Of a stretch of 57,742 nt of DNA, positions 12,205 to 18,996 are shown piece after piece. This DNA is from Ruminococcus sp. Its GTDB lineage: Bacteria; Bacillota; Clostridia; Oscillospirales; Ruminococcaceae. How positions within the stretch are numbered: position 1 is the first letter of the stretch; every line of letters starts with the position of its first letter. A model generated the notes under the pieces. That model saw only the letters and a list, made by a program, of their open reading frames with translations. It searched no databases and had not been told where the DNA came from. Location: assembly GCA_017397925.1 (NCBI GenBank), contig JAFQHO010000085.1, positions 1 through 57,742 of the forward strand, written 5' to 3'. The translations under genes and the position numbers were made by a program.

Positions 12205-12262
12205 TTGACAAGCAGGACAAAATGTGGTATAATCTAAAAATGAAAATGATTATCAATTTTGA
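12205..12262 (+). promoter_or_regulatory. znu promoter with Zur-like operator over the start site
   Basis: TTGACA (12205-12210) and TATAAT (12228-12233) with a 17-bp spacer. An imperfect inverted repeat with core ATGATTATCA (about 12241-12262, AAAATGATTATCAATTTT) covers the expected transcription start near 12240. It resembles Fur/Zur-family boxes. Given the zinc importer downstream I infer Zur repression; Fur or another metal regulator cannot be excluded. Confidence 0.7.
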
Positions 12263-12288
12263 GTTTCTCTTTTGTTATGGAGTTGAAT

Positions 12289-13269
12289 ATGTTTAAAAAA
12301 ATCGTTTCAGCGGCATCTGCCGCTGTTTTATCCCTTTCCGCTTTTGCTTCCTGCAGCGGACAGAATACAGCTGACGACGGCAGATTGAGCGTTGTATGCA
12401 CTGTTTTTCCCTGCTATGATTGGACAAGGCAGATAGTTGGAGATACAGAAAATGTGGATATAACCTATCTTCTTGACGACGGTTCTGACCTCCACAGCTT
12501 TCAGCCTACTGCCGATGATATGATTAAAATATCCGACTGCGATGTTTTTGTCTATATCGGCGGCGAATCTGATGAATGGGTTGAAAAAGCCCTTGAAAAT
12601 GCCCGTAATAAGGATATGAAGGTAGTCAAGCTTATGGACAGCCTTTCGGAGTTTCTCACTGAGGAGGAGCATAAGGAGGGTATGGAGGAAGGTCACGACC
12701 ACGAGGGGGAGGAGCATCACCACGAGGATAACGCTTATGATGAGCATATATGGCTTTCCCTTAACAATGCTCAGTTCTGTGTTGCGGATATATCAGCTGC
12801 ACTTTCTCAGGCGGACGGCGTTAATTCTCAGGTGTATTCCGATAATTCCAACGCTTATAATACCGAATTGCAGCTCCTTGACAGAAGTCTTCATATGATG
12901 TTCGACGGTCAGCCGCAGACGTTGATTTTTGGCGACCAATTCCCTTTCCTCTACTTTACAAAGGATTATGGACTTGACTATTATGCCGCATTTTCGGGCT
13001 GTTCTGCTGATATCGAGGCAAGCTTTGAAACTATAACTTTTCTCTCTGAAAAGGTGGATGAGCTTGATGCTGATACAATTTTTGCAATAGAAAACTCCGA
13101 CTGCACTATTGCTGAGGCGGTTGTTGCCAATACTGCGGAAAAATCGCAGAATATAGCCGTTCTTGATTCAATACAGTCGGTTTCACAGAAACAGATTGAC
13201 GGGGGGTATACATATCTTTCGGCAATGCAGGAAAACTACAACGTACTGAAAGAGGTCTATAATTCGTGA
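12289..13269 (+). CDS. znuA: Zinc ABC transporter, substrate-binding lipoprotein
   Basis: 326 residues. A lipoprotein signal ends at Cys22 (lipobox AFASC). The cluster A-1 metal-binding fold is indicated by VFPCYDWTRQIVG and by DLHSFQPTADD, with a metal-ligand His. A His/Glu/Asp-rich loop (EEGHDHEGEEHHHED, about residues 134-148) is typical of zinc rather than manganese binders. The protein captures Zn2+ outside the membrane. I choose the ATG at 12289 with GGAG 6 nt upstream. First gene of a three-gene operon; its stop overlaps the start of znuC by 4 bp. Confidence 0.93.
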   Translation: MFKKIVSAASAAVLSLSAFASCSGQNTADDGRLSVVCTVFPCYDWTRQIVGDTENVDITYLLDDGSDLHSFQPTADDMIKISDCDVFVYIGGESDEWVEKALENARNKDMKVVKLMDSLSEFLTEEEHKEGMEEGHDHEGEEHHHEDNAYDEHIWLSLNNAQFCVADISAALSQADGVNSQVYSDNSNAYNTELQLLDRSLHMMFDGQPQTLIFGDQFPFLYFTKDYGLDYYAAFSGCSADIEASFETITFLSEKVDELDADTIFAIENSDCTIAEAVVANTAEKSQNIAVLDSIQSVSQKQIDGGYTYLSAMQENYNVLKEVYNS

Positions 13270-13982
13270 GTGAACAGATTATATGCTCCAATGCGGCTCT
13301 CGGCTACGAGGACGGTATTGTTACTGAGGGGCTTGATTTCACAGTAAGCAGCGGCGATTATCTTTGTATACTGGGCGAAAACGGTTCGGGTAAAAGTACG
13401 CTGATTAAGGCTCTTTTAGGGCTGAAACCGCAGATAAGCGGCGATATTCGCTTCTGCGGCGATTTTTCAGCTAAGGATATTGGATATCTTCCTCAGCAAA
13501 CACCTGTACAGCGTGATTTCCCTGCATCTGTTGAGGAAATTGTGCTTTCGGGCTGCCTTTCTAAAATGGGATTTTTGCCCTTTTATCGCTCGGCTGAAAA
13601 AAAAATTGCGGCTGAAAATATGAAACAGCTTGGCATTGAGGACATAAAAAAACGCTGTTATCGCGACCTTTCGGGTGGACAACAGCAGAGGGTACTTCTT
13701 GCACGTGCTTTATGTGCGGCAAGCAAAATGCTCCTCCTTGACGAGCCTGTAACGGGACTTGACCCCATTGCTCAGACGGAGCTTTATGAAATGATTGCTA
13801 AGCTGAATAAAAAGGGGATTACAATAATTATGGTATCCCACGATATATCGTCAGCTGTAAAATATGCGTCACATATCCTGCACATATCGAAAAAACAACT
13901 TTTCTTCGGTACAAAGGCAGACTACGTGAAAAGCTCCGTAGGACGCAGATTCCTTGAAAGCGAGGTGGGCGGCGATGAATGA
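13266..13982 (+). CDS. znuC: Zinc ABC transporter, ATP-binding protein
   Basis: 238 residues. Walker A GENGSGKST (about residue 38), ABC signature LSGGQQQR, Walker B MLLLDEP and the H-loop MVSHD are all intact, so it should hydrolyse ATP to drive zinc import. GTG start overlapping the znuA stop (GTGA), which implies translational coupling. It overlaps the permease gene by 8 bp. Confidence 0.94.
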   Translation: MSEQIICSNAALGYEDGIVTEGLDFTVSSGDYLCILGENGSGKSTLIKALLGLKPQISGDIRFCGDFSAKDIGYLPQQTPVQRDFPASVEEIVLSGCLSKMGFLPFYRSAEKKIAAENMKQLGIEDIKKRCYRDLSGGQQQRVLLARALCAASKMLLLDEPVTGLDPIAQTELYEMIAKLNKKGITIIMVSHDISSAVKYASHILHISKKQLFFGTKADYVKSSVGRRFLESEVGGDE

Positions 13983-14832
13983 TATCTTCTCCACATTGCA
14001 GTATTATTTCTCACATCCCTTTGTGGTTTATGCCCTTATTGTAGGGCTTCTTATTGCCCTGTGCTCCTCACTTCTTGGAGTTTCTCTCGTACTGAAACGC
14101 TTTTCCTTTATCGGGGACGGTTTATCTCACGTTGCTTTCGGTGCAATGGCTGTTGCCGCTGTTACGGGCGTAACAAACAGAATGATAATTATACTGCCTC
14201 TGACGGTGCTTTCAGCTGTATTGATACTCCGCACCGGACGTAATACGAAGATACGCGGTGACGCTTCTGTTGCGATGATATCGGTGGGTGCGCTGGCTAT
14301 CGGCTATATGCTGATGAACATATTCCCTGTATCGTCGAATATCTCCGCTGATGTGTGCGGTTCCCTTTTCGGTTCAACTTCAATCCTCACGCTGAAACAA
14401 AGCGATGTCTGGCTTTGTCTTGCTATGTCGGTTGTTGTGCTTGTTTTCTTCGTTTTGTTCTATAACAGAATTTTCAGCGTTACCTTTGACGAGAGTTTTT
14501 CAAAGGCAACGGGTATAAATTCCGACGGCTATAATCTTATGATAGCCATAATAACAGCCATTATCATTGTTATTGCGATGAATCTTGTTGGCTCGCTGCT
14601 TATTTCGGCGCTTATAATTTTTCCTGCGCTGTCGGCTATGAGAGTATTCAAAAGCTTCAAGAGTGTGACAATATGCTCCGCTGTTATTTCAGTTGTATGC
14701 GCAGGTACGGGAATAATCCTTTCCATTCTTTGCTCAACACCTGTGGGCGCGACTATTGTTACAGCTGATTTAGGGGCATTTCTTATATTTTCGATTATTG
14801 GCACTGTTATGTCTAAAAAACGCGTGAAATAA
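13975..14832 (+). CDS. znuB: Zinc ABC transporter, permease
   Basis: 285 residues, eight or so hydrophobic segments, family ABC-3 metal permeases. FSFIGDGLSHVAFGAMA near residue 45 and the long C-terminal SLLISALIIFPALSAMRV segment are signatures of ZnuB/MntB. I start at the ATG at 13975, preceded by GAGGTGGG, instead of a TTG seven codons upstream. The gene ends 4 bp before a strong bidirectional terminator shared with the convergent methyltransferase gene. Confidence 0.93.
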   Translation: MNDIFSTLQYYFSHPFVVYALIVGLLIALCSSLLGVSLVLKRFSFIGDGLSHVAFGAMAVAAVTGVTNRMIIILPLTVLSAVLILRTGRNTKIRGDASVAMISVGALAIGYMLMNIFPVSSNISADVCGSLFGSTSILTLKQSDVWLCLAMSVVVLVFFVLFYNRIFSVTFDESFSKATGINSDGYNLMIAIITAIIIVIAMNLVGSLLISALIIFPALSAMRVFKSFKSVTICSAVISVVCAGTGIILSILCSTPVGATIVTADLGAFLIFSIIGTVMSKKRVK

Positions 14833-14868: not shown

Positions 14869-15678
14869 TCATCTTGTAATTTCCCAGAATGCTACTGCAC
14901 TTGCTGCGGCTACGTTGAGGGAGTCAACGCCCTCTGCCATAGGGATTTTTACAGTATAATCGCAGGCTTCAATAGTGCTGTCTTTCAGTCCTTCGCCCTC
15001 GGTACCGAGGATTATGGCGATTTTTTCAGAATTTTTCAGTTCGGGATTGTCAATATCCGCTGTGTTGCTGTGGAGCGCCATTGCTGCTGTTGTAAATCCC
15101 ATTCCTTTTAGTTTTGCCACATATTCGGGGGAATTTCCGCTTATGTACGTCCAGGGCATACCGAATACAGTTCCCATACTTACGCGGATAGCACGGCGAT
15201 AGAGAGGGTCACTGCTTGGCTCGGTGAGCAGTACTGCGTCAATACCTAAAGCAGCAGCGGAACGTATAACAGCGCCGATATTTGTTTGATTCATAACGTC
15301 CTCTAAAACGGCTATACGGTGTGCATTTCGGCATATTTCCTCCGCTGTTGGAAGCGGCTTTCTTCTCATTGCACAGAGAAGTCCCTGGGTAAGCTTAAAG
15401 CCTGTCAGTTCCGTAAGAATAGCGCTGTCTGCCGTATAAACAGGAATATCTGCGCATTTGTCGATTATATCCTTGCCTTGCCCCTCAATGTATTTACGCT
15501 CTGCAAGGAGAGAAATCGGCTCGTAGCCGTGTTTCAGCGCAAGGCGGATAACCTTTGGGCTTTCGGCTATAAATATGCCTAAATCAGGCTCAAAATAGCG
15601 TTTAAGCTGGATTTCATTGCTTGATACGTAGGGGATAAGCTCCTCGGCTGTCAAATCATTTATTTCAATAATTGGCAT
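14869..15678 (-). CDS. TrmH/SpoU family RNA 2'-O-methyltransferase
   Basis: 269 residues. The N-terminal ~110 residues resemble the SpoU substrate-binding region; the C-terminal SPOUT domain carries motif 1 (NIGAVIRSAAALG), motif 2 (ILGTEGEGLKD) and motif 3 (IPMAEGVDSLNVAAA). Such enzymes methylate ribose in rRNA or tRNA with S-adenosylmethionine. The exact target cannot be read. The gene has its own unit between two terminators. Confidence 0.92.
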   Translation of the reverse strand: MPIIEINDLTAEELIPYVSSNEIQLKRYFEPDLGIFIAESPKVIRLALKHGYEPISLLAERKYIEGQGKDIIDKCADIPVYTADSAILTELTGFKLTQGLLCAMRRKPLPTAEEICRNAHRIAVLEDVMNQTNIGAVIRSAAALGIDAVLLTEPSSDPLYRRAIRVSMGTVFGMPWTYISGNSPEYVAKLKGMGFTTAAMALHSNTADIDNPELKNSEKIAIILGTEGEGLKDSTIEACDYTVKIPMAEGVDSLNVAAASAVAFWEITR

Positions 15679-15738: not shown

Positions 15739-15945
15739 TTATTCAATACCCTTGACAACGAAATCAGCATCAGTGATTGTTTTAATGAGCAGTTCCTCGG
15801 AAACATCGCCTGTTATTTCGAGATAAGCGCACTTGTTTTCCAGTGAAACCTCCGCAGATACTCCCTCAATTGCGTTGAGAAGCTTTGTAACCATACCTGT
15901 GCAGTGATTGCACATCATACCATCAATATACATTGTCTTTTTCAT
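15739..15945 (-). CDS. copZ: Possible internally initiated CopZ copper chaperone
   Basis: The last 68 codons of copA, from an internal ATG at 15945, encode a complete CopZ-sized heavy-metal domain with MMCNHC. A perfect GGAGG stands 8 nt before this ATG, stronger than the site of most genes here. I infer that ribosomes may start internally and make a free chaperone that delivers Cu+ to the pump. The alternative is a recent fusion of copA and copZ with the old ribosome site left behind. The product is predicted, not shown. Confidence 0.6.
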   Translation of the reverse strand: MKKTMYIDGMMCNHCTGMVTKLLNAIEGVSAEVSLENKCAYLEITGDVSEELLIKTITDADFVVKGIE

Positions 15946-18249
15946 AGTAGTAACCTCCGTTTTTGTGGATATATCATTGTTTTCAGGGATTTCACCCTTG
16001 CTTTTTACGGTTTTGAAAAGATTCAGCCGCAGGGCATTTGTCACAACGCAGACAGAGCTGAGGGACATAGCTGCCGCCCCAAACATAGGGTTGAGCTGCC
16101 AGTGAAAAATAGGATAGAAAAGGCCTGCTGCAAGGGGAATTCCAAGGCTGTTGTATATCAGCGCCCAGAACAGATTCTGCTTTATATTCCGCATTGTAGC
16201 GCGGCTTAGACGTATAGCTTCCGCAGCATCACGTAAATCATTGTTCATAAGGACGATATCTGCAGATTCTATAGCGATATCCTGTCCGCCGCCTACGGCT
16301 ATTCCTACATCAGCCGCTGCAAGTGCAGGAGCGTCGTTTATACCGTCACCCACCATTGCAACACATTGTCCCGATTGCTGTAAGTTGCGTATTACAGCGG
16401 TTTTATCAGCGGGTAGCAACTCGGCGTGAAACCCATCAATTCCAAGCTCACGGCATATAGCCTTTGCTGTCCTTGAATTGTCACCCGTGAGCATTACTGT
16501 TTTTATGCCGAGATTTCTGAACATTTCTACTGCCTCTTTGGAGGTGGATTTCACAGGATCTGCGGCAGTTATAATGCCGACAGCCTTGCCGTCAGCGGCA
16601 ATAAACAGCGGTATACTGCCATTTTCAGCGGATTTCTCAGCCTTTTCGGCAAGTGCGGAAATATCTGTATTATGCTGCTCCATAAGCCGCTTGTTGCCTA
16701 TGAGTATTTTTTTATTGTTCACAATACCCGACAATCCGCCGCCTTCTGTTTCTATATAGTCATTACAAGGAAGAATGTCAATGTTATTCTCCTTGCAATA
16801 GCTTATAATCGACTTTGCAAGAGGATGTGACGAATTTGCTTCAAGAGAGCCGGCATATATCATAAGCTCATTTTGCGTAATACCCATTGAATATATTTCG
16901 CGTACTTTCGGCTTTCCCACAGTGCAGGTGCCTGTTTTATCAAGGACAACAGCTGTGATTTTATGTGCAGTTTCAAGGCTTTCTGCCGACTTGATGAGAA
17001 TACCTTGTTTTGCTCCCATTCCTGTGCCTACCATAATTGCCGTTGGAGTGGCAAGTCCAAGAGAACAAGGACAAGAAATAACAAGTACAGAAATTGCAGC
17101 TTTCAGAGATGCTGCTGTATCGCCTGTGAAGATTAGCCATATAATCGCCGAAATAATGGCAATTGTAATAACCACGGGAACAAAAACACCACTGATTTTA
17201 TCTGCAAGCCTTGCAATAGGAGCTTTTGAAGCAGCAGCCTCCTCAACAAGGGAAATAATTTTAGAAAGAGTGGAGTCCTTTTCCGCGCGGTCACATCGGC
17301 ATTTTACAAATCCACCTGTTGAAACGGATGCGCTCATAAGGGTATCATCGATATTTTTTACAACAGGTATGCTTTCACCGGTGAGAGCAGACTGGTCAAC
17401 GGAGCAACTGCCCTCAATAACAGTGCAGTCACAGGGAATTGCCGCACCGGCCTTGATTAGAATTATATCACCTACAACAATGTCAGCGGCAGGTATTTCT
17501 GTTTCTTTTCCCTCGCGGACAACGAGAGCAGTTTTCGGTGCAAGGTTGATTAACGCAGTAACAGCGTCGGATGTACGGCCTTTGCTTTTGGCTTCAAGGT
17601 ACTTTCCAACGGTAATCAGGGTTAAAATCATTCCGCAGGATTCATAATACAGGTTCATCATAAATCCGTGAGCCGTAGTTAAATCGCCGTGTCCCATATG
17701 ATAAGCAACCATATATGTTCCATATAAACTGTAGACAAAAGCCGCAGTTGCTCCAAGAGCAATAAGGCTATCCATATTAGGAGAACGGTGAAACAGGTTT
17801 TTAAAGCCGTTTCGGAAAAAGTGAAAATTCAGTGCAATAATCGGCAAAGTCAATAGCAGCTGCGTCAGACAGAAAAGCATCATATTTTCTTGTCCGTCAA
17901 GTATATTAGGTACGGGCAGCCCGAACATATGTCCCATACATAGATAAAACAAGGGAAGCATAAAGCACAAAGAGAGCATAAGTCTTGTTTTCATTGCCTT
18001 TGAATCAGCGTGAGTGGCAGATTTTTCGGCTTTCTTGCCGACTTCTGCTGCACCGTAGCCTGCTTTCTCAACGGCGGATATAATTTCTGTTGAATTGGTT
18101 GAATTTTCATCGTATTCAACCTGCATATAATTCCTCAGAAGGTTTACATTGACGGCAGAAATGCCGTCAAGAGATTTTACAGCCTTTTCAACGTGAGCCT
18201 GACAAGCGGAACAGGTCATACCCGTAACATCAAATTTAGTTTTTTTCAT
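15739..18249 (-). CDS. copA: Copper-transporting P1B-type ATPase with C-terminal CopZ domain
   Basis: 836 residues. N-terminal heavy-metal domain with GMTCSAC (Cys13, Cys16), eight membrane segments, the Cu+ translocation motif CPC (393-395), phosphorylation motif DKTGT (Asp437), the HP motif SSHPLA and the hinge GDGIND. It exports Cu+ using ATP. After the last membrane segment a ~25-residue linker leads into a complete second heavy-metal domain (769-836, MMCNHC). C-terminal metal domains are unusual in this family, where they are normally N-terminal. I start at the ATG at 18249, with GAGG 6 nt upstream. Promoter at 18331-18359. Confidence 0.95.
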   Translation of the reverse strand: MKKTKFDVTGMTCSACQAHVEKAVKSLDGISAVNVNLLRNYMQVEYDENSTNSTEIISAVEKAGYGAAEVGKKAEKSATHADSKAMKTRLMLSLCFMLPLFYLCMGHMFGLPVPNILDGQENMMLFCLTQLLLTLPIIALNFHFFRNGFKNLFHRSPNMDSLIALGATAAFVYSLYGTYMVAYHMGHGDLTTAHGFMMNLYYESCGMILTLITVGKYLEAKSKGRTSDAVTALINLAPKTALVVREGKETEIPAADIVVGDIILIKAGAAIPCDCTVIEGSCSVDQSALTGESIPVVKNIDDTLMSASVSTGGFVKCRCDRAEKDSTLSKIISLVEEAAASKAPIARLADKISGVFVPVVITIAIISAIIWLIFTGDTAASLKAAISVLVISCPCSLGLATPTAIMVGTGMGAKQGILIKSAESLETAHKITAVVLDKTGTCTVGKPKVREIYSMGITQNELMIYAGSLEANSSHPLAKSIISYCKENNIDILPCNDYIETEGGGLSGIVNNKKILIGNKRLMEQHNTDISALAEKAEKSAENGSIPLFIAADGKAVGIITAADPVKSTSKEAVEMFRNLGIKTVMLTGDNSRTAKAICRELGIDGFHAELLPADKTAVIRNLQQSGQCVAMVGDGINDAPALAAADVGIAVGGGQDIAIESADIVLMNNDLRDAAEAIRLSRATMRNIKQNLFWALIYNSLGIPLAAGLFYPIFHWQLNPMFGAAAMSLSSVCVVTNALRLNLFKTVKSKGEIPENNDISTKTEVTTMKKTMYIDGMMCNHCTGMVTKLLNAIEGVSAEVSLENKCAYLEITGDVSEELLIKTITDADFVVKGIE

Positions 18250-18291
18250 ATCAGACCTCATTTCAATTTGCTATTTGCCGATCCGCACGGA

Positions 18292-18359
18292 GCAAACTTT
18301 AGTTTGCGGATGTGCGAGGCACTTTATATAATTATACATCAAAGAAAAATGTTTGTCAA
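18292..18359 (-). promoter_or_regulatory. copA promoter and leader hairpin
   Basis: Minus-strand TTGACA (18359-18354) and TATAAT (18336-18331) with a 17-bp spacer. The normal spacing argues against a CueR/MerR activator, which uses 19-20 bp. The leader contains a perfect 7-bp palindrome (GCAAACT/AGTTTGC, 18292-18307) flanked by further pairing bases. I see no CopY-type box. Confidence 0.8.
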
Positions 18360-18389: not shown

Positions 18390-18617
18390 TTATTTATTCA
18401 TCATTTTTTTCAATTCGCCGAAAAGCTCAACATCGTTTTCATTGACTTTTATATTCGTTCTCATTTTGTAGCCCTCAGCGTTCATAACAGTTATTTCAAC
18501 AATGCTGTCCTTGCTTACTTCGCCTGCTGCTGCAGATAGGAACATCAGCAGCTTGGGGTGGTCCTGTGTGAAACGCTCAAAAAGTGGCTTGATTTTTAAA
18601 AATCCCATTGGATTCAT
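18390..18617 (-). CDS. Small conserved-looking cytoplasmic protein, unknown function
   Basis: 75 residues, soluble, no cysteine. Sequence begins MNPMGFLKIKPLFERF and ends ELFGELKKMMNK. I do not recognise a family. I choose the ATG at 18617 because AAAGGA lies about 9 nt upstream; ATGs at 18626 and 18635 are too close to that site. The gene is downstream of and translationally close to the NusG-II protein gene, so the two are likely cotranscribed. Confidence 0.75.
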   Translation of the reverse strand: MNPMGFLKIKPLFERFTQDHPKLLMFLSAAAGEVSKDSIVEITVMNAEGYKMRTNIKVNENDVELFGELKKMMNK

Positions 18618-18631
18618 ATTTTTCATTCCTT

Positions 18632-18979
18632 TCATTCTTCGTCAAATCGCAGTATAAGGTGGTGAGGCAGGCATACAACGGGCATTTCCTCGGATTTGAG
18701 TGTGCCTGTCTTAACGCAGGTATTGTCGGGGCAGTCAGCCTCGGAAATACGTATTTCACCGTTTTTTATCTCGATTATATTATAGCCGCCGTCCTCGTAG
18801 TCTATTCTGATTTTTTCGTCCTTTGCAGTTGATAAATCAAAGCGGTAAAGCTCCCTGTTATCGCGGATAACCGAAACATTTTTACTGTCAGCAGGTCGAA
18901 GAAAAAACAGCGATAACACGGCAGATACCGCAAAAACGACTATAACGCAGATAAGAATAATTTTTACACCCTTTGTCAT
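18632..18979 (-). CDS. NusG domain II-containing membrane-anchored protein
   Basis: 115 residues: an N-terminal hydrophobic segment (IILICVIVVFAVSAVLSLFF) followed by a small beta-rich domain with the two cysteines of the NusG_II family (ADCPDNTCVKTG and VVCLPHHLIL). In other Firmicutes such proteins stand beside transporters or FMN-linked redox genes, but their role is unclear. The ATG at 18979 follows GGTGAGG; an upstream ATG (18991) lacks a site. The gene overlaps the frame of the next gene's early ATGs. Confidence 0.82.
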   Translation of the reverse strand: MTKGVKIILICVIVVFAVSAVLSLFFLRPADSKNVSVIRDNRELYRFDLSTAKDEKIRIDYEDGGYNIIEIKNGEIRISEADCPDNTCVKTGTLKSEEMPVVCLPHHLILRFDEE

Positions 18980-18996
18980 ATACCTCACCATTTAAT

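Follow-up and report, generated by a model that had tools for sequence, protein, structure and literature searches.

A predicted internal ribosome site in a fused copA gene of Ruminococcus sp. as a candidate route to a copper pump and a free CopZ-like chaperone

Introduction

Does a copper-pump gene that runs without a stop into a chaperone-like domain make one protein or two? The question is raised by copA in a 57,742-nucleotide stretch of DNA from Ruminococcus sp., the whole of which is referred to here as the window. In E. coli, CopA and CopZ reportedly arise from one gene by programmed frameshifting, in work of 2017 attributed to Meydan and to Drees, the title of the latter being said to mention differential transcripts. 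The E. coli frameshift product is the N-terminal domain, and the slippery heptamer is CCCAAAG. This heptamer is absent from the window's copA, and its only match in the window lies in the next gene (positions 15553 to 15559). As far as the E. coli case is cited in excerpts of PMC10187127 and PMC7558416, the likeness is that one copper-pump gene gives both pump and chaperone, there by frameshifting. The window's copA would differ in using its C-terminal domain, made from an internal start, where E. coli draws on the N-terminal domain and a frameshift.

We propose, with a probability of about 0.86, that the window's copA encodes both a pump and a free CopZ-like chaperone by way of a retained internal ribosome site. 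A copA gene and the copZ downstream of it would have become one reading frame, with copZ retaining a ribosome-binding site and a start codon of its own. A single mRNA would then give the entire pump, with the chaperone domain tethered at its C terminus, and ribosomes using the internal AUG (15945) would produce a free 68-residue CopZ-like chaperone. Both products would accumulate, and the free chaperone would collect Cu(I) and pass it to the pump.

Results

The preliminary description had the copper ATPase continuing in frame into a complete 68-residue heavy-metal (HMA) domain with the motif MMCNHC, and this holds: a single frame, stop-free throughout, runs from CopA into the C-terminal domain (Table 1), and the 68 residues alone score 36.2 bits with PF00403 (cut-off 24.8), one of two stretches of the gene that match this family. 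The translation scores 581 bits with TIGR01511 (copper-translocating ATPase; cut-off 397) and contains SCPCSLG and DKTGT, which we take to be the CPC and DKTG motifs of P1B-1 Cu(I) ATPases. The GGAGG was also found where it had been placed, 8 nt before an in-frame ATG. Numbering that ATG as codon 769 is right when counting begins at the second ATG of copA; from the start of the 840-residue frame it is codon 773.

Table 1. Features of the copA gene and its internal site; positions are those of the window.
Feature	Position	Strand	Remark
copA, 840 aa: P1B-type Cu(I) ATPase, one HMA domain at the N terminus and a CopZ-like one fused at the C terminus	15739..18261	(-)	
Alternative copA start (MKKTKFDV), second ATG	18249	(-)	Inferred from sequence; may be the true start
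N-terminal HMA domain, MTCSAC	18055..18234	(-)	64.5 bits
Linker, 27 residues, from the NALR motif (end of membrane part) to the C-terminal domain; stop-free	15946..16026	(-)	Read from sequence
Internal Shine-Dalgarno (SD) GGAGG	15954..15958	(-)	8 nt before the ATG at 15945; conserved in homologues
CopZ-like domain (68 aa plus stop) and candidate free chaperone, MxCxHC type (MMCNHC)	15739..15945	(-)	
Predicted N-terminal peptide of the internal-start product	15945		MKKTMYIDGMMC
Promoter-like TTGACA-17-TATAAT, 5' of copA	18331..18359	(-)	12/12 matches; consensus match only

The promoter scan of the copA region returned 8 sites against 7.0 expected by chance, and this weak consensus scan predicted no other promoter-like site inside copA on the same strand. 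No Rfam family matched the window at gathering scores, and RNA folding at the window's own internal site is unremarkable (z -0.31). The NCBIfam CopZ models fall below their cut-offs on the 68 residues (NF047957, 46.7 of 85; TIGR00003, 34.4 of 62), and we therefore call the domain CopZ-like rather than filing it under those models. An HMA search of the genome that holds the window (2.7 Mb, 90% complete) gave three matches, two in copA and one in another frame of 757 residues, and found no free copZ.

We then asked how far the internal site is shared. We defined a C-11 start as a start codon placed 11 residues ahead of the first Cys in the C-terminal domain, and scored it at 158 loci of the genus and family, including that of the window (L102 was dropped). 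It is present at 95 of these (91 ATG, 4 GTG), and all 95 reach an anti-SD energy of -6 kcal/mol or lower (median, -9.8), with a GGAGG or AGGAG core at 79. Among the 63 loci that lack it, 14 reach -6, 4 have the core and the median is -2.8; 3 of the 14 carry an ATG one codon off and 2 a start two codons off. As a control we took the 3035 remaining in-frame ATGs of these genes; 435 reach -6 kcal/mol and 37 have a GGAGG or AGGAG core. The SD and start at the C-terminal domain are not there by chance.

The pattern extends well beyond the family. Start and SD are present at 50/50 order loci at -6.2 or lower, in a sample of the 30 best-scoring loci plus 20 spread over families that includes the window's own locus and several genomes sampled earlier. 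Across class and phylum, all 64 loci with a start at C-11 have an SD energy of -7 or below; 9 of the 10 remaining fused loci have a shifted start and SD, and one (L347) has a start further out. Of 80 named relatives, 59 are fused by our first rule: 49 have the C-11 start, each with an SD, 6 have a shifted start with SD and 4 lack it. Pooling gave 346 fused copies, 334 of them distinct, with start and SD in 271, where the best start and SD between C-8 and C-15 were chosen for each gene. In this tally three loci have no second domain nearby, and L262, at a contig end, has no CopA body yet counts among the order's 50; further HMA-search matches in or near CopA genes (L001 to L003, L163 to L192) and stand-alone HMA frames (L193 to L212) stand outside it.

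Outside the window's genus, 235 of the 245 distinct fused copA genes examined carry an in-frame start with SD at the C-terminal domain and 10 do not. Among the coded genomes examined, the window's included, the site occurs in 47/47 families and 129/134 genera. By named record it is found in Clostridia (34/37), Tissierellia (3/3), Negativicutes (7/7), Coriobacteriia (8/9), Actinomycetes (1/1, Bifidobacteriaceae), Mollicutes (1/1) and Bacillota of no named class (2/2); it is absent from the single Erysipelotrichia named record. The gene of Bifidobacterium phasiani (L431), which lies outside Bacillota, is fused with a shifted internal start and SD and is possibly a horizontal transfer. Another fused gene (L261) carries a tandem pair of C-terminal HMA domains, with start and SD only before the first.

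Within the genus the picture divides. Start and SD are present at 36 of 89 fused loci (one genome, G065, contributes two of the 89) and missing at 53, and all 53 also lack the C-11 start. Two of the 36 (L092 and L119) have no C-11 start and look like chance, which sets a rough background for our rule of 2/55 genus loci without that start. One of the 34 genus loci with a C-11 start (L079) is probably a chance ATG, because it is sister to a start-less gene on the CopA tree. The preliminary description had held loss of the GGAGG in close relatives that keep the fusion to count against internal initiation. Such loss does occur, at the 53 loci; the C-11 start is missing there too, and start-less loci tend to be accompanied by stand-alone copZ-like genes. 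In the CopA clade to which the window's gene belongs, 22/22 rows keep both start and SD.

A tree of 158 CopA bodies shows 10 changes of the start, which occurs in both deep clades. Four contrasts between start and SD are independent on starred, well-supported branches (10 on all branches); in these the SD changes with the start in 3.7 of 4 on average, and in none in the opposite direction (p 0.125; because the sequences are related, p values overstate).

The fusion itself is widespread. A 134-residue CopA tail is matched in 113/125 genomes of the genus and 261/297 of the family, the best matches listed being mostly one frame of about 820 to 900 residues through the C-terminal domain. A 25-row profile, built from SD-positive genes, matches 373/394 genomes of the order, 368/391 of the class and 390/398 of the phylum; the order and class matches listed are mostly fused frames, and many of the phylum matches listed have stops inside the match or short frames. 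Loci were picked among the best 150 or so matches listed per genome search. The alternative of a recent copA-copZ fusion, which the preliminary description had allowed for, is rejected, since fused genes occur in the genus, the family, the order, the class and more widely.

Split relatives show the arrangement from which such genes could come. Of 20 candidates chosen for stops inside the match, 19 are split and 1 is fused; across 32 split loci a separate copZ frame begins 13 to 138 nt behind the copA stop (one at 358). An SD precedes copZ in 18 of the 19 operons scored, the 19th having been scored in the wrong frame. These operons encode the same two proteins, with copZ close behind copA, and they differ from the window's copA in the stop between the two genes, where the window's frame is open through the linker. 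On a 288-row CopA tree, built like the 158-row domain tree from a random subset, fused and split forms change 9 times, at least 7 of these forced by starred branches, and the start with SD changes 14 times among the fused rows. In the comparison of homologues put forward at the outset as a check, a stop stands before copZ in the split loci, start and SD are kept in most fused genes, and they are missing at 53 of the 89 genus loci.

By motif and tree the C-terminal domain groups as CopZ-like. MxCxHC occurs in 317/345 C-terminal domains and 25/31 split CopZ proteins, and in none of the 232 N-terminal domains found. In the domain tree, which has 63 columns and is poorly resolved, one supported side (95*) is made up of the N-terminal domains, and on the other side C-terminal domains are intermixed with split CopZ. 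On motif and tree we reject an origin as a duplicate of the N-terminal HMA domain. Of the solved sequences, small chaperones (best, 1yg0, "COP associated protein," E 4e-7) come nearest, along with ATPase domains, and an excerpt of PMC7558416 describes MxCxHC for a CopZ2-like subgroup.

The linker could have acquired an SD simply through its composition: it is rich in K and E, which predisposes to SD-like sequence, and synonymous shuffles already average -6.6 in anti-SD binding. The native linkers nevertheless bind better than the mean of their shuffles in 193/201 genes (-10.6 versus -6.6), although gene by gene only 21% beat their own shuffles at p of 0.05 or less; start-less genes show no excess in the same test (22/60). 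Dipeptides of K, R, E or T followed by E are coded xxG-GAG in 103/152 cases at the site versus 342/1689 elsewhere, and GGAG occupies two codon frames (59 and 20 genes). Where the start site codes for Val, the codon is GTG in 6/6 genes, and GTC or GTT in 3/3 start-less ones. On the shuffles, dipeptide codon counts and start-less genes we reject a chance SD. Along the linker the SD energy is level apart from a single sharp peak roughly 15 nt ahead of the start; how high this peak stands is partly a product of picking the positive set by SD energy. The site is less paired (0.67) than in start-less genes (0.51) or at control sites (0.42). The nucleotide-level tests, spacing included, ignore kinship.

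Where the internal start is missing within the genus, a separate gene tends to be present. A stand-alone copZ-like gene (counted as frames up to 196 residues) accompanies 45/55 genus loci without the C-11 start and 2/34 with it, among the matches listed; in genomes at least 90% complete the figures are 32/33 and 2/22, again among the matches listed. Two loci, L079 (genome G050) and L101 (G088), combine the start with a copZ, among the matches listed. The copZ query is distant and does not match even the window's own fused domain, so that copies resembling that domain may be missed; we added an HMA-profile control, in which start-less genomes had a short HMA frame in 20/28 (14 of the 16 fetched being CopZ-like, GMMCxxC) and genomes with the start in 4/20, none CopZ-like (all DCANC). 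These four frames (G049, G055, G081 and G119) adjoin an ArsR-like frame, named by eye, and were rejected as stand-alone CopZ; L193 and L194, from start-less genomes, were set aside on the same grounds. Three contrasts between start and copZ lie on starred branches, of which 1.5 run as expected, 1.5 show no difference and none runs against, so the apparent replacement by copZ within the genus rests on few independent changes. Many of the stand-alone copZ-like proteins L195 to L208 have a tail, e.g., EPYEKKGFSLF, that is not in the fused domains of the profile alignment. In genome G118 a 766-residue copA is followed by two separate small HMA frames (L102), and the same genome has a fused, start-less copA (L083).

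These results bear on whether the site might be a relic, with SD and ATG left over from a split copA-copZ operon after loss of the stop and no longer initiating. The same SD and start do occur in split operons, and stop loss would account for the origin of the fusion. A relic would nonetheless have to be kept in 235/245 fused genes outside the genus though linker length varies (22 to 49 residues, 5th to 95th percentile), would leave the codon choice biased to GGAG, and would have SD and start absent together, with a separate copZ-like gene then usual in the genus. We regard it as improbable. Slightly less probable again is that the gene makes the fused pump and no free protein, its C-terminal HMA acting as a regulatory metal-binding domain as in CopA of Archaeoglobus fulgidus. 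That protein has HMA domains at both ends, and we know of no report of an internal start in it. Many members of the genus do retain the fused domain with no internal start, and a C-terminal metal-binding domain is in print for A. fulgidus CopA, as cited in an excerpt of PMC7558416, a likeness to the window's CopA; the SD, the start, the codon bias and the link to a missing separate copZ are left unexplained by it.

The least probable reading, to which we give very little weight, is that an SD-like stretch aids insertion, by slowing ribosomes past the last membrane helix, and initiates nothing: the start does lie a median of about 31 codons from the end of the membrane part, but SD distance is tight to the start (standard deviation, 1.6 nt in a 16-position search range, a regularity partly by construction, since the best start between C-8 and C-15 was chosen and the SD sought within 25 nt of it) and loose to the membrane segment (31.8 nt), and genes without a start there are mostly without an SD-like stretch. 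In 22 genes with the start at another offset, the SD lies 3 to 12 nt before that start, a result that is partly by construction, since a positive call required an SD before the start.

Discussion

The comparison argues strongly for the internal initiation proposed by the preliminary description, as a separate route to pump and chaperone. We think it likely that the window's copA belongs to a widespread copper system of one gene and two proteins, found in Clostridia, Negativicutes, Coriobacteriia and others, which would combine a tethered with a free chaperone, interchange repeatedly between fused and split forms and represent a second independent solution relative to E. coli.

In-frame internal starts that release a C-terminal part as a second protein are described for the short isoform of SpaO/SctQ (in an excerpt of PMC13059759) and for Cas11b (in an excerpt of PMC11899642). 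What SpaO/SctQ, and Cas11 from cas8 or cas10, share with the window's copA is, in these excerpts, the in-frame start and ribosome site before a C-terminal domain. They belong to other families and both of their products sit in one complex, whereas the products of the window's copA would be a mobile metal carrier and a pump. A literature search on CopZ/CopA internal initiation or a C-terminal HMA found no description of such a design, most subscription journals lying outside it.

If the proposal is right, a copper chaperone goes unannotated in many gut and anaerobic bacteria, and some genomes apparently without copZ do have one. The design would be a second one-gene, two-protein solution for copper, convergent with that of E. 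coli and located at the other end of the gene. Loci that have lost start and SD together and have a separate copZ instead would amount to a natural experiment on keeping both a tethered and a free chaperone, and the same test, for a domain-boundary start and an SD in more than one codon frame that go missing together, could reveal other hidden internal genes.

Beside copA, three genes at 12259 to 14832 (+) encode, by their translations, a His-rich lipoprotein, an ATPase and a permease, presumably a Zn/Mn ABC uptake operon with a ZnuA-like lipoprotein. The 81-residue frame directly upstream of copA (18390 to 18635, -) has no Pfam or NCBIfam match at E 0.001 and is preceded by a frame with a NusG_II domain (18632 to 18991).
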